Shown in pieces: positions 2,116-14,119 of a stretch of DNA of 27,241 nt; position 1 is the stretch's first letter; each line of letters begins with the position of its first letter. The notes beneath the pieces were generated by a model. That model was not told the DNA's origin and searched no databases. It saw only the letters and a list, made by a program, of their open reading frames with translations. Location: positions 1 to 27,241 of the IMG/VR virus record IMGVR_UViG_3300046535_000568; one strand, 5' to 3'. Source of the stretch: a virus. The position numbers and the translations under genes are program-made.

Positions 2116-2585
2116 CCGATCCCAAGGAAATTACCGGTGTGCTGTGGTTCTCCGATCATGAGCCGCGCGTATTCGGTCACTTGCAGATCGGGACAGCGCA
2201 TTACGAGATCGCGGGCATCCGGCGTTCTGACCGCAAGACCGATCTCACCGGGCGGAAGGTGCCGCGCAAGACCCCGATCCCGCAGACCCCGGTAGAGCCA
2301 TCGGTCGATCAGGAGACGAACGATCATGACAAGTGGCGCGCACTGGGGCCTGTCAAGCAGGCGGGCATCCGGTGCAAGGACCCGGTGTTCTGGGCGTGGC
2401 TGGCAGAGGACGGCCCCGGCCATAGTGGTCCCTACGATGAGGGAGAAGCGGCTGCTTTTGTCCGCACATATTGCAACGTGCTGACGCGCGGCGACCTTGG
2501 CAAGCCCGGCTTCTCCGATCAGCGCATCCTGTGGTTCAACCTCGATCAAAAGTTTCAGGCGTGGCGGGCAAAGGAGAATGCATGA
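2112..2585 (+). CDS. Conserved phage-type hypothetical, recombination operon
   Basis: A 157-residue protein starting at GTG 2112, where GTGA overlaps the stop of the annealing protein; the open frame further upstream is only a shadow of that gene. The N-terminal 45 residues (ITGVLWFSDHEPRVFG onwards) look like a small beta-rich domain. The C-terminal half contains KDPVFWAWLAE and a Cys/Tyr segment (VRTYCNVLTRGDLG), then a Trp-rich end. The pattern resembles phage proteins of unknown function found beside single-strand annealing genes. A DNA-binding role is possible but unproven. Its stop overlaps the methyltransferase ATG. Confidence 0.65.
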   Translation: MTDPKEITGVLWFSDHEPRVFGHLQIGTAHYEIAGIRRSDRKTDLTGRKVPRKTPIPQTPVEPSVDQETNDHDKWRALGPVKQAGIRCKDPVFWAWLAEDGPGHSGPYDEGEAAAFVRTYCNVLTRGDLGKPGFSDQRILWFNLDQKFQAWRAKENA

Positions 2586-3319
2586 ATGCGCTCGATCTCT
2601 TTTCGGGAATTGGTGGCATCAGTCTCGGCCTTGAGCGAGCCGGGCTGCGCACCGTCGCCTTCTGCGAACTCGATCCCTTCTGCCGCGCCGTCCTCAAAAA
2701 GCACTGGCCGGATATCCCCTGTCACGACGACATCCGCAGCCTTCACACAGATGGAATTGCCATTGATGTCATCTGTGGCGGCTTCCCCTGTCAGGACGTC
2801 AGTCTCGGCAACGCGGTGTGGGGCGAGCGCACCGGCACTGCCGGATTGCGTACGGGACTGTACCGGTATGTCATTGGAGCCATTCGCTTGGTACGACCGC
2901 GCTTCGCGGTCTTGGAGAACGTGGCAAACCTGCTTGATCGAGGGCTGGGCGACGTTCTCGGAGACTTGGCCGAGATCGGCTACGACGCGGAGTGGCATTG
3001 CGTTCGCGCCTGCGACAGCGGCGCTCCCCATGAGCGCGACCGCATCTGGATTATTGCCTACCCCGTCGGCTCGCGAACACAAAGACTGGTCGAGAGCGCG
3101 GATTTTGGCCGCGCTGGAGCGTGGCGATGGCGTGGCGAAAAAGATTTGCAAGCTATCGCCGACGCTCCGTTCCAGCGAGGAGATCGTTGGCCTCAACCCC
3201 TCCTTCGCGGAGTGGATGATGGGCTTCACGGAAGGCTGGACCGTCTTGGAGCCATCGGCAACGCCGTCGTCCCGGCGTTCGCGGAAGCGATCGGCAAAGC
3301 CATCATGAGGCGAGCATGA
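2582..3319 (+). CDS. dcm: C5 cytosine DNA methyltransferase
   Basis: A 245-residue cytosine-C5 methyltransferase, which transfers a methyl group from S-adenosylmethionine to C5 of cytosine. Motif I DLFSGIGG is at residues 5-12, motif IV GGFPCQDVS carries the catalytic Cys70, motif VI is ENV 112-114, a motif VIII-like GAPHERDR is at 147-154, and motif X GNAVVP is at 226-231. ATG 2582 follows AAGGAG (2571-2576) and overlaps the previous stop. Phages use such enzymes to evade restriction or mark their DNA. Oddity: only about 65 residues separate motifs VIII and IX/X, short for a target-recognition domain, and this stretch (about 3062-3250) has poor G/C-ending codon use in this frame, while the +1 frame has gene-like codon use. 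The core enzyme call is firm; the exact product is not. Confidence 0.88.
   Translation: MNALDLFSGIGGISLGLERAGLRTVAFCELDPFCRAVLKKHWPDIPCHDDIRSLHTDGIAIDVICGGFPCQDVSLGNAVWGERTGTAGLRTGLYRYVIGAIRLVRPRFAVLENVANLLDRGLGDVLGDLAEIGYDAEWHCVRACDSGAPHERDRIWIIAYPVGSRTQRLVESADFGRAGAWRWRGEKDLQAIADAPFQRGDRWPQPLLRGVDDGLHGRLDRLGAIGNAVVPAFAEAIGKAIMRRA
2586..3308 (+). other. Fully open +1 frame inside the methyltransferase gene
   Basis: The frame one base ahead of the methyltransferase is open for 240 codons, almost the whole gene. Its first half is Ser/Ala/Pro-rich and looks like a shadow. From about codon 95 it becomes protein-like: SWRTWQ, FSETWPRS, SGLLPTPSAREHKDWSRA, then GLNPSFAEWMMGF and EGWT. I associate motifs of this kind (xPTPxA, NPxFxEWxMGFPxGWT) with ORFs linked to phage C5 methyltransferases. 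By hand count of 63 codons from 3063, about 50 end in G/C in this frame against about 32 in the methyltransferase frame. It could be translated separately, be joined to the methyltransferase by frameshifting, or be a conserved shadow. Confidence 0.4.
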
Positions 3320-9314: not shown

Positions 9315-9506
9315 TTATCGATACACCCGGTAGAGCGGCGGCTGTGTGGCGGTCTCAGGGTCGCCTTGGATCACCCAGCCGTGCTTCGCGGCCTCGTCAG
9401 CCTGCGCCTTGGTCAGCAACACACAACCACTCTTGACGAAGTCGGTGCCGAGTTCGCCGCGAAGAACGATGTCGCCGTCGTCGGTGAAGTTGACGGTGCG
9501 GATCAC
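9315..9506 (-). CDS. Small hypothetical protein with GTG start
   Basis: A 63-residue protein beginning (GTG) VIRTVNFTDDGDIVLRGEL and ending PPLYRVYR. It has a beta-rich N-terminus and a helix (TKAQADEAAKHGW). Just upstream on the minus strand, AAGGGG is followed at ideal spacing by an ATG that reads only four codons (MSVL), and its TGA overlaps the GTG start (GTGA). The four-codon leader may couple translation, or a one-base change may have separated the true ATG from the gene. The gene runs divergently from the large terminase, with only about 28 bases between starts. Confidence 0.5.
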   Translation of the reverse strand: MIRTVNFTDDGDIVLRGELGTDFVKSGCVLLTKAQADEAAKHGWVIQGDPETATQPPLYRVYR

Positions 9507-9534
9507 AATACACTCATTGGAAAGCCCCTTACTT

Positions 9535-10896
9535 TTGGCACAACAGGTTCCGCTTCCGCACAATAACTGGAAGGCGCGACCGCACCAAGCCAAGCTGTGG
9601 GAATATCTCGACGCTGGCGGCGAGCGGGCTTTTGCCGTGTGGCACCGCCGCGCGGGCAAGGACGAAGTTTGTTTGCACCATGCGGCTGTCAGCGCGATGC
9701 GCAGGCCCGGCAACCTGTGGCATTGCCTCCCCGAATACAATCAGGGCCGCAAGGCGATCTGGACCGCGATCAACCCGCACACCGGACGGCGGCGGATCGA
9801 TGAGGCGTTCCCCGACGTGCTCAGGGAGAACGTCAACGACAACGAGATGTTCATCCGCTTCAAGAACGGCTCTACCTGGCAGGTGATCGGCTCCGATCGC
9901 TACGACGCCACACTCGGCGCGGGCTGCACCGGCATCGTCTACTCCGAGTGGGCGCTCGCCAATCCCTCCGCGTGGGCCTACCACCGCCCGATCCTGCAAG
10001 AGAACAACGGCTGGGCCTGCTTCATCACCACGCCGCGCGGCCACAACCACGCCAAGGCGCTGTTCGACCACGCATCGACGTCGCCGAACTGGTTCTGCGA
10101 ACTCTTGACGGTGAAAGACACGCAGGCGCTCTCCGACGCCGATCTCGATGATGCTCTGAAGGAGTATCAGGCGCTGTATGGCGAAGACGTCGGGACAGCC
10201 CAATTCCAGCAGGAGTACCTGTGTAGCTGGAACGCCGCCATCTTGGGTGCATTCTTCGCACTCGAAATGGCGGCGGTCAGATCGGAGGGGCGCATTGCCG
10301 GGATCGAGGCGATCCCCGATCGCGCGGTGCATCGGGCGTGGGATTTGGGCGTGCGGGATGATACCGCGATTTTCTGGTTCCAGCATGTCGGCAGCCAACT
10401 CTTTATACTGGACCACTACGCGGCGTCGGGCGTCGGCCTCGAACACTACGCCGCGCAGATCGAGCAGCGGAAGCAGGCCTACGGCTGGCTCGACGGCAAC
10501 GACTACGTCCCGCACGACGCCAAGATCAAGGAGTGGGGCAGTGGTCGCACCCGCGTCGAGACCATGCAGGGCATGAACCTGCATCCGATGCTGGTGCCGC
10601 TCGCAAGCATCGGAGACGGCATCAACGCGGTCAGACGGACGCTGCCGCTGTGCGTGTTTCATCCGCGCTGCGAGGACGGCGTCAACGCGCTCGAACAATA
10701 CCGACGGGAGTGGGACGACGAGAAGAAGGCGTTCAGGGCGAGTGCGGTCCACGACTGGACCTCGCACCCGGCGGATGCGTTTCGATATTTGAGCATGTCG
10801 TGGCGACCGAGTGCGCCGCGACCGATCAGACTGCCCGAGCGCAGGGGCATCATCCTGCCGCCGCCGAAAGAATACCGGAGAGGAATGATTTTATAA
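9535..10896 (+). CDS. terL: Terminase large subunit
   Basis: The ATPase/nuclease motor that packages phage DNA into the prohead through the portal. About 453 residues from the TTG at 9535. N-terminal region NNWKARPHQAKLWEYL precedes a Walker A-like HRRAGKDE (37-44); a Walker B-like GIVYSEWA is near 133-140, with TTPRGHNHAKALF after it. The nuclease domain begins around DLGVRDDTAIFWF (about 270). The length is normal for the family. No ATG is available: TTG 9535 has GGAAAG about ten bases upstream and yields the expected short N-terminus; TTG 9517 or GTG 9496 are alternatives. The frame upstream to 9346 is a shadow of the opposite gene. Confidence 0.92.
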   Translation: MAQQVPLPHNNWKARPHQAKLWEYLDAGGERAFAVWHRRAGKDEVCLHHAAVSAMRRPGNLWHCLPEYNQGRKAIWTAINPHTGRRRIDEAFPDVLRENVNDNEMFIRFKNGSTWQVIGSDRYDATLGAGCTGIVYSEWALANPSAWAYHRPILQENNGWACFITTPRGHNHAKALFDHASTSPNWFCELLTVKDTQALSDADLDDALKEYQALYGEDVGTAQFQQEYLCSWNAAILGAFFALEMAAVRSEGRIAGIEAIPDRAVHRAWDLGVRDDTAIFWFQHVGSQLFILDHYAASGVGLEHYAAQIEQRKQAYGWLDGNDYVPHDAKIKEWGSGRTRVETMQGMNLHPMLVPLASIGDGINAVRRTLPLCVFHPRCEDGVNALEQYRREWDDEKKAFRASAVHDWTSHPADAFRYLSMSWRPSAPRPIRLPERRGIILPPPKEYRRGMIL

Positions 10897-11561: not shown

Positions 11562-11795
11562 ATGCAGATCAAGATCCCGCTTCGCCTCGCGAGGTGGGCC
11601 GACAGCTTCGCCGATATTCTCAATGTGGTTCTGATCCGGCGCGGGCGGTTGACCGTTCGCGTCGTTGACGTTGCCGTCGGCATCATCGGCACCGTCTCGA
11701 CGGTGTGGTGGTATGCGGCGTCGGGCTGGTGGGGTGCGCTGGAGAGCGTGCTGATGTTCGCGCTGGCGATGATGATGGCAGTCTGGTTCTTCTAA
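11562..11795 (+). CDS. Small membrane protein
   Basis: A 77-residue protein starting MQIKIPLRLARWADSF, with two hydrophobic segments (VVDVAVGIIGTVSTVWWYAA and ALESVLMFALAMMMAVWFF) separated by a short WW-containing loop. It begins one base after the stop of the sorting-tail protein and ends about 15 bases before the portal start, so the two membrane/envelope proteins form a unit within the head operon. No strong Shine-Dalgarno. Holin-like topology is possible, but the place between terminase and portal does not prove lysis. Confidence 0.6.
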   Translation: MQIKIPLRLARWADSFADILNVVLIRRGRLTVRVVDVAVGIIGTVSTVWWYAASGWWGALESVLMFALAMMMAVWFF

Positions 11796-11809
11796 GGAAG
11801 GATGATGTT

Positions 11810-14119
11810 GTGAGTGACACCGACGCGCCTGTGGAAGAAGACATCAGGCACGACGATCTCGAATTTAACCCGGCGCTCGAACCGCAAAGCGCCCTCGCGT
11901 GGCTGAACCTGCTTTCCGAGAGCGAGACCGCGTTCGAGGACTGGAACAGGCACTGCGACCGCATCGACAAGCGCTACGCCAACCTCGACCGCCTCGCCAA
12001 CATCGCCCGCATCAAGGAATATCAGATGTTCTGGGCCAACGCCGAGGTGATCAAGCCGAGCATTTATGCCAAGCCGCCGATCCCGGTGGTGGTGCCCAAG
12101 TTCCTCGACCGGCGACCGGTGTATCAGGCCGCAGCGGAAGTGATGGAACGCTGCGCGGTGGTCGCCTTCGACCTCGCGGGCATTGACGAGTTGATGAAGC
12201 TGGTCCGCGACGATCTGGCGCTGATCGATCGCGGCGTGGCGTGGTGCCGCTACGAGAGTGGCACCGACGCCGACGAATACTACGGCTTTGAAAAGGTCTG
12301 CATCGACTTCGTCAACCGCAGGGATTTCCTGCACTCGATCTCGCGCAACTGGCGCGAGGTGACGTGGGTTGCGGCGGCGAGCTACCTGACGCGGGCCGAG
12401 GCGCGCGAGCGGTTCTACAAATACTCTGGCGATGAGTATCAGGACGCCGAGTACAAGATCGACAAGGAGACACAGGAGATCGGCGGCACCGACCGCCGCG
12501 AGCGCGCCAAGTTCTGGGAAATCTGGAGCAAGGGCGACAGGCGGGTGATCTGGGTCTCGGAGGGCTGCGAGAACATCCTCGATGAAGACGACCCGCATCT
12601 GGAATTGCGCGAGTTCTACCCCTGCCCGAAACCCGCCTACGGCACCGTGCAGCGCGGCTCGCTGGTGCCGGTGCCCGACGTCCTCCAGTACAAGGACCAG
12701 CTGGACGAGATCGACACCCTGACCGGGCGCATCCACGCGCTCTCCGACGCCGTCAAGGTGCAGGGCTTCTATCCGGCGGGCGCATCTGAACTTGGGGACG
12801 CCATTCAGGCCGCCGTCGACACCGAGACGCCGGGGCGGGTGCTGGTGCCGGTCTCGAACTGGGCCGCGTTCGGCAACACCAAGGATGTCATCATCTGGCT
12901 GCCGATCGACACCATCGCCACCACCATCGTGCAACTGGTGACGCTGCGCAAACAGATCATCGATGACATCTACCAGATCATGGGTCTTTCCGACATCATG
13001 CGCGGCGCGACCGATCCAAGCGAGACACTCGGCGCGCAGCAGATGAAAAGCCAGTACGGATCGACCCGCATCCGCGACAAGCAGGAAGAAATCGTGCGGC
13101 TGGCGCGCGACCTGGTTGAGATCACGACCGAGATCATCACCGAGAAGTTCAAGAAGACCACCATCATCGAGATGTCGCAGACCCAATTGCCGACGATGGC
13201 GATGCAGAAGAAGCAGGTCGCTGATATTCAAAAGCAGATGGCCGCCAATCAGCAGGCCTTGCAGAAGGCGCAACAGCTTCCGCAGATCCAGCAAGACCCG
13301 CAAGGCCCGCAGAAACTGCAACAGGCGGGAGCCGCGCTCCAGCAGGCGATGCAGGAGGGCCAGACCGCGATCAACAAGATCATGTCGCAACCTACGCTCG
13401 ATCAGGTGCTCGAGCTTCTGAAAGACAGCCGGATGAAGGGCTTTGTGCTGGACATCGAGACCGACAGCACCATCATCCCGAACGAGCAGCAGGAGAAGCA
13501 GCAGCGCAGCGAGTTCATCGGCGTGCTCTCGCAACTGATGCCGCAACTGGCGCAGATGATCACAGCCGATTCGCACTCGGCTCCGTTGTGCGGGCAACTC
13601 CTGAAGTTCGCCACCGCGCCGTTCCGCGCCGGTCGGGCGCTGGACAGCGCGATTGACGAATACACCGCGCAACTGGAAGCCAAGGCCGATCAGCCGCGAC
13701 CCGACGATCCCACCACCGCGCAGAACAAGACCGCGCTCCAGATCGAGCAGATGAAGGATCAGACCAACAAGGAGCGGATCAAGGCCGACAGCGACGCCGA
13801 GATGGCGAAGCTGAAGATGCAGGACCAGCACAAGGCCGCCGAACTGCAAAATCAGAAAGACATCGAGGCGATGCGGCTCAACGCCAAGCAGGGCGACATG
13901 CAGGCGAAGAGCCAAGAGACCAATTTGAAGATGATGCAGTCGAGGGAGGAGCATCAGGCCGCGATGGTGGAAAGTCAGGCCGACATCGAGCAGGCGCGGG
14001 AGAAGATGGCGATGATGCAGCAGACCCACGCCATGAAGCAGGACGACATGGTGAAGCGGCAGCAGGAACGCGCCGCCGCGCAGCAGTTCAAGATGACGCA
14101 GACGCCGATGGTGCCGTGA
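11810..14119 (+). CDS. Portal protein
   Basis: The 12-subunit ring through which DNA enters and leaves the capsid. 769 residues from GTG 11810, with AAGGAAGG (11794-11801) eight bases upstream. The N-terminal core (ALAWLNLLSESETAFEDW, EYQMFWANAEVIKPSIYAKPP) resembles podovirus portal proteins. From about residue 470 there is a Gln-rich coiled coil (QKQMAANQQALQKAQQL), and from about 637 to the end a long charged Gln/Lys/Met-rich helix, like the barrel/crown extension seen in P22-type portals. Position directly after terminase and before head genes supports the call. The family is inferred from these features without a search. Confidence 0.8.
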   Translation: MSDTDAPVEEDIRHDDLEFNPALEPQSALAWLNLLSESETAFEDWNRHCDRIDKRYANLDRLANIARIKEYQMFWANAEVIKPSIYAKPPIPVVVPKFLDRRPVYQAAAEVMERCAVVAFDLAGIDELMKLVRDDLALIDRGVAWCRYESGTDADEYYGFEKVCIDFVNRRDFLHSISRNWREVTWVAAASYLTRAEARERFYKYSGDEYQDAEYKIDKETQEIGGTDRRERAKFWEIWSKGDRRVIWVSEGCENILDEDDPHLELREFYPCPKPAYGTVQRGSLVPVPDVLQYKDQLDEIDTLTGRIHALSDAVKVQGFYPAGASELGDAIQAAVDTETPGRVLVPVSNWAAFGNTKDVIIWLPIDTIATTIVQLVTLRKQIIDDIYQIMGLSDIMRGATDPSETLGAQQMKSQYGSTRIRDKQEEIVRLARDLVEITTEIITEKFKKTTIIEMSQTQLPTMAMQKKQVADIQKQMAANQQALQKAQQLPQIQQDPQGPQKLQQAGAALQQAMQEGQTAINKIMSQPTLDQVLELLKDSRMKGFVLDIETDSTIIPNEQQEKQQRSEFIGVLSQLMPQLAQMITADSHSAPLCGQLLKFATAPFRAGRALDSAIDEYTAQLEAKADQPRPDDPTTAQNKTALQIEQMKDQTNKERIKADSDAEMAKLKMQDQHKAAELQNQKDIEAMRLNAKQGDMQAKSQETNLKMMQSREEHQAAMVESQADIEQAREKMAMMQQTHAMKQDDMVKRQQERAAAQQFKMTQTPMVP

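Follow-up and report, generated by a model that had tools for sequence, protein, structure and literature searches.

A locus in the IMG/VR virus record IMGVR_UViG_3300046535_000568 raises the question of how a C5-cytosine DNA methyltransferase gene with no motif IX in its own reading frame could specify a complete enzyme, and whether a long open frame lying +1 within that gene is a second gene. The window, that is, the whole stretch of DNA that was analysed, comprises 27,241 nt (a 27 kb virus record). The methyltransferase gene, referred to here as A, is preceded by an exonuclease-like gene and followed by a primosomal-protein-like gene, with terminase and portal genes further on, surroundings consistent with the early, DNA-metabolism part of a tailed-phage or prophage genome. 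The terminase large subunit and portal genes (9346-10896 and 11705-14119) mark the window as a tailed-phage or prophage fragment.

Four features define the catalytic frame:

2582..3319, plus strand: gene A, specifying a catalytic C5-cytosine DNA methyltransferase chain of 245 aa, counted from its ATG (PF00145, phrog_363 and profile alignment).
2570..2577, plus strand: Shine-Dalgarno-like AAAGGAGA upstream of the A ATG (2582) and 9 nt upstream of a frame-B ATG at 2586 (from the sequence).
2789..2791, plus strand: catalytic Cys codon of A, in GGFPCQD of motif IV (sequence and family knowledge).
3257..3274, plus strand: GNAVVP, motif X of A (read from the sequence and aligned by profile with canonical columns 310-343).

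The motifs FSGIGG, GGFPCQD, ENV, HERDRIW, and GNAVVP satisfy the criteria for a C5-cytosine methyltransferase (I, IV with PCQ, VI with ENV, VIII, and X), and the gene matches phrog_363 with an E-value of 2e-67 and PF00145 with an E-value of 1.2e-38, the latter over positions 1-165 only of a 324-position model. When the A profile was aligned to canonical enzymes, it covered only columns 2-171 (motifs I-VIII) and 310-343 (motif X), bearing out the assignment of these motifs to frame A in the initial annotation, which was made from the sequence alone. Motif IX is lacking in frame A. A single-chain enzyme would be expected to carry, ahead of motif X and in the same frame, both the recognition region and motif IX, and A does not.

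The second frame has the following extent:

2586..3308, plus strand: open frame B of 240 codons, offset +1 from A (open-frame check; match to phrog_1008, E 1.2e-16).

Both open frames had been reported previously and were reproduced, as were the counts of third-position G/C over 3062-3250, which proved identical on recomputation (32/63, or 0.51, in A and 50/63, or 0.79, in B). Frame B matched no Pfam family and no NCBIfam family; phrog_1008, a cluster named 'DNA methyltransferase', was matched by all 64 of the 64 aligned B sequences.

An open frame of this kind could be a mere out-of-frame shadow cast by the conserved motifs of A and by high GC content. Such shadows do occur: weak and short B-profile matches interrupted by stops arise over A motifs IV-VI in canonical methyltransferases (L337-L347), and matches of this type should not be counted as B genes. 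The issue was addressed by shuffling the synonymous codons of A within each gene across 67 non-redundant relatives, a procedure that keeps the A protein and its codon usage. From approximately 2738 to 3247, B is conserved above this null (z about 4 to 60), and B-frame stops are depleted throughout and absent over most of the stretch. Constraint on B is near the null over the first 50 codons of A, and after approximately 3247 stops in the B frame of relatives exceed the null expectation. Because stops in the relatives are as frequent there as under the null or commoner, the first ~50 codons of B (2586-2737) and the last ~20 (3248-3308) are regarded as unconstrained shadow. Low-GC relatives (e.g., L041) keep B open only across the conserved part, contrary to what a shadow of high GC would give. 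The selected portion of B can thus be delimited, and, together with the substitution patterns described below, the gene can be divided as follows:

2738..3247, plus strand: part of frame B under protein-level selection, constituting a second gene B (synonymous-shuffle test and phase-specific divergence).
2858..3061, plus strand: dual-coding stretch with motifs V-VIII in A and FAWYDRASRSWRTWQTCLIEGWATFSETWPRS...SGLLPTP in B; both frames are constrained, and A third-position divergence is 0.18 as against 0.41 in the A-only N-terminus.
3062..3187, plus strand: variable (target-recognition) region read mainly in B, an open linker in A; the B wobble site is fastest (0.51 vs 0.36 and 0.36) and A is weakly constrained.
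3189..3242, plus strand: motif IX-like segment in frame B, GLNPSFAEWMMGFTEGWT (profile-profile alignment to canonical motif IX with hhalign; in frame with A in L178 and in ShiLan gp70).

Divergence by codon phase was determined from 21 independent close pairs and is given here as differences at the first, second, and third codon positions of A (A1/A2/A3). In the A-only N-terminus it is 0.11/0.07/0.41, in motifs V-VIII 0.12/0.04/0.18, in the variable region 0.51/0.36/0.36, in the IX segment 0.19/0.09/0.10, and in motif X 0.12/0.06/0.38. Since A1 is the wobble site of B, the leading frame along the gene passes from A to both, then to B, and back to A. The criterion for an overlapping gene pair, that both frames be selected as proteins over the same DNA, is therefore met, and the shadow explanation is contradicted by the shuffles, whose B conservation falls many standard deviations below that observed, and by the B wobble site being the fastest in the recognition and IX segments; it is scarcely tenable. 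The check on synonymous-site constraint that had been proposed is hereby supplied, and the outcome that would have refuted dual coding, namely B homologs that are nothing but out-of-frame shadows, was looked for and was not borne out. The original placing of the dual signal at about 3062-3250 holds in that B is selected there; however, the constraint is not limited to this interval and extends across A motifs IV-VIII. That the locus is truly dual coding, as had been suggested, is strongly supported by B conservation above the shuffles, the scarcity of stops, the phase rates, the start signals, and the recurrent +1 overlap (the last two considered below), and it can be held with near certainty.

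The nature of the second protein is indicated chiefly by its most conserved segment. When the B profile was compared without guidance with 15 canonical C5 methyltransferases, a single place was aligned, motif IX, pairing GLNPSFAEWMMGFTEGWT with RRVTPEERLKLQGFPYYW. The hhalign probability is low (7-9%), as the match is short, with a score of 26.8 against 19.4 for the best shuffle, and none of 300 column shuffles reached it. B fills canonical columns 285-305, which lie between the A-aligned columns 2-171 and 310-343. A search of PDB sequences with hmmsearch and a 119-row B profile returned only two matches (E 1), both to DNA methyltransferases and both at 'LEPDEVEMLLGFPKNHT' within the motif IX segment; a 64-row profile returned none. 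AlphaFold2 models of B built from 64 and 119 sequences were of low confidence, with mean pLDDT values of 61 and 68; comparing them with the PDB in Foldseek gave no usable fold match.

Two natural cases place parts of B in the frame of A. ShiLan gp70 (L100) has a B-type, PTP-rich recognition region with 'LAPAFSEWMMGWPAGWVT' that is read in the frame of A and lies directly before motif X. In L178 the segment 'LNPDWVEWLMGFPIGWT', ahead of LGNAVVP, shares the frame of A, the remainder of B still being +1. Together they mark an apparent route between an overlapping two-chain enzyme and a single-chain enzyme, in either direction. The motif IX match and these in-frame cases support the conjecture of the initial annotation that B is a recognition-type module. 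Weighing against such a reading, the B of this window carries T at a position that is nearly always P in its relatives (GFT vs GFP). In three relatives (L009, L039, and L158), the variable part of frame B has several PTP-like segments in a row (WPTPxxxD and similar), as if recognition units had multiplied.

B might instead be a separate protein unrelated to methylation, such as a regulator or a counter-defence factor, whose overlap with A is fortuitous. Overprinted genes often encode unrelated products, and the absence of a Pfam family or a confident fold for B would be in keeping with this. Against it, the most conserved segment of B matches a motif that is absent from A, at the place where that motif belongs, and is found in frame with A in ShiLan gp70 and L178; moreover, the canonical methyltransferases sampled do not carry B, and B is hardly ever found without A. 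An unrelated function is accordingly considered unlikely. The analysis establishes B as a selected protein that accompanies A and supplies the motif that A lacks. That the variable region sets specificity is deduced from its position and the selection upon it, biochemical specificity being without data.

The manner in which B is translated bears upon a further explanation. A candidate start lies near the beginning of the selected part:

2751..2753, plus strand: ATG, candidate start of B (MELPLMSS); an ATG stands here in many relatives, and there is no clear Shine-Dalgarno sequence (inference).

An internal ATG with a Shine-Dalgarno match of at least 4 nt is present in 40% of relatives compared with 11% expected (z 7.9). 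In relatives whose B frame contains stops further upstream, a start follows those stops, with AAGGAGG then ATG in L010 and GGGGAGGG then GTG in L037, and the annotation of phage Lily gives B a start at its own ATG, under the name 'g62 internal gene'. Given these internal Shine-Dalgarno and start sites, B is most likely translated separately from an internal start rather than by frameshifting. Whether the start in this window is ATG 2751, or ATG 2586 sharing the ribosome-binding site of A, is undecided.

Under programmed frameshifting, ribosomes translating A would slip +1 into B, and perhaps back again, to yield one methyltransferase with the recognition region and motif IX of B. A product combining motifs I-VIII from A, the recognition region and IX from B, and X from A would have the order of a canonical enzyme, part of which is found in one frame in ShiLan gp70 and L178, and a CCCC run occurs at the proposed junction (3061-3064), where the initial annotation had noted that the frames meet. 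The run is indeed present, but it consists only of a Pro codon and a neighbouring base and is missing in 35 of 73 relatives (present in 38), so that the criterion for a conserved slippery site is not met at this junction, the only one tested. B is also constrained upstream of the junction, through A motifs V-VIII, independent starts with Shine-Dalgarno sequences are enriched in relatives, and reaching motif X would require two opposite shifts. Frameshifted joining, which had been offered previously as an alternative to dual coding, is consequently not favoured and is judged improbable, a little more so than an unrelated function for B. An earlier frameshift within 2738-2850 is not excluded, as slip sites were not systematically searched for there.

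Frame B is encountered together with A over a wide range of phages and genomes. Relatives were drawn by A and B searches from viral contigs, bacterial genomes, and phage and plasmid records, and both frames are present in nearly all of those found. Profile models of the two proteins gave 299 B matches, of which 295 overlapped A in the same +1 register; since the loci had been selected for their similarity to A or B, the figure speaks for the register and not for frequency among all methyltransferases. Carriers include phages or genomes of Proteobacteria, Actinobacteria, Firmicutes, Bacteroidetes, and Cyanobacteria, as well as a Leptospira plasmid, and the arrangement is conserved across very diverse phages. 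An independent B gene without A was sought among the matched loci and almost none was found; one candidate, LPPA33, was rejected as it has a divergent A frame. An exception is L316:1-1330, where an open frame of 443 codons closes with a B-like tail (SLNPEFVCWLMGFPKEWNDCA); an intact A is lacking there, and the tail resembles a remnant joined to another gene. Among 58 genomes sampled, B was found in none of approximately 20 unselected canonical methyltransferases that have motif IX in frame and whose PF00145 match reaches the C-terminus, and in both of the two truncated PF00145 matches in genomes not chosen for B. In Vibrio phage 1.233.A, motif IX is in frame and B is broken. In Mycobacterium phage Llama (L103, gp74/gp75), A itself occupies two ORFs, the reading frame changing by one base near motif VI; several phages are listed with this split piece, so the split is probably real, and it could represent a natural knockout or a frameshift case.

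From these observations a two-chain enzyme can be proposed. Frame A would provide the catalytic chain, with motif I for SAM binding, the nucleophile in PCQ, ENV, and motif X, whereas frame B, which lies +1 inside A between about motif IV and a point just short of motif X, would provide a second chain of approximately 165-185 residues with the target-recognition region and motif IX. The two products most likely assemble into one methyltransferase to which B supplies these elements in trans, and the enzyme would serve to protect phage DNA from host restriction. Escape from host restriction is probably the purpose of the methyltransferase, but its use in this way is inferred, as are the physical assembly of A and B, their enzymatic activity, and the standing of B as specificity subunit. 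We hold with good confidence that a single C5-cytosine methyltransferase is formed by A as its catalytic subunit and B as its recognition subunit, the enzymatic role of B being inferred in the absence of expression or activity data. Somewhat less firmly, though still favoured, A and B may represent a class of C5 methyltransferases, ancient and spread throughout phages, whose recognition chain is overprinted in +1 on the catalytic gene, with B acting in trans as a specificity subunit, in a role like that of HsdS in Type I systems.

The overlap explains the apparent absence of motif IX in such methyltransferases and leads to the prediction that enzyme specificity resides in the missed gene B. 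A large phage gene family annotated as a single methyltransferase, or as 'hypothetical protein' if the gene caller picks B, appears to encode two co-selected proteins, and as most annotations give only one of the two overlapping genes, correction on a large scale is called for. So long an overlap on the same strand also offers a clear case for studying the co-evolution of two protein frames.

No description of overlapping or embedded phage methyltransferase genes was found in the literature searched, coverage of which was partial and mostly of non-subscription sources. PHROGs places A in phrog_363 and B in phrog_1008, both 'DNA methyltransferase' clusters, treated as separate families whose names as shown do not convey two frames at one locus. 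Lily gp62/gp63 (Paenibacillus larvae phage, KP296792) has the same overlap, annotated without explanation, and a survey subsequent to that annotation lists both gp62 and gp63 as cytosine methyltransferases (PMC6070908). In phage ShiLan, a methylase contains an out-of-frame HNH endonuclease (PMC11855218), which is likewise a phage methylase gene with a second protein in another frame; that case, however, is a homing insertion in another gene (gp65), whereas B is no insertion and overlaps the methylase motifs themselves.

Naturally two-polypeptide C5 methyltransferases include M.EcoHK31I and M.EaeI, and the gene for the large chain of M.EcoHK31I also encodes the small chain, in an alternative frame. 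M.AquI (CYCGRG) consists of two polypeptides that form one C5 methyltransferase split around the variable region, and artificial fragments of other C5 methyltransferases also reassemble (PMC3404938). M.AquI differs in having both IX and X on its small chain, while here X remains with A, and the two coding regions share DNA in different frames. M.EcoHK31I (YGGCCR) has I-VIII and X on the large of its two chains and IX on the small one, with the predicted recognition domain placed on the large chain (PMC3404938). The present locus resembles it in that A has I-VIII and X without IX and B carries motif IX. It differs in being a phage gene with no restriction partner identified, and in that the variable region is under B selection, with B-type phases and A weakly constrained, so that a recognition domain on the large chain is not matched here. 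The kind of enzyme thus has a precedent, and it is the phage-wide spread and the placing of the recognition region in the overlapping frame that look new against the searchable literature.
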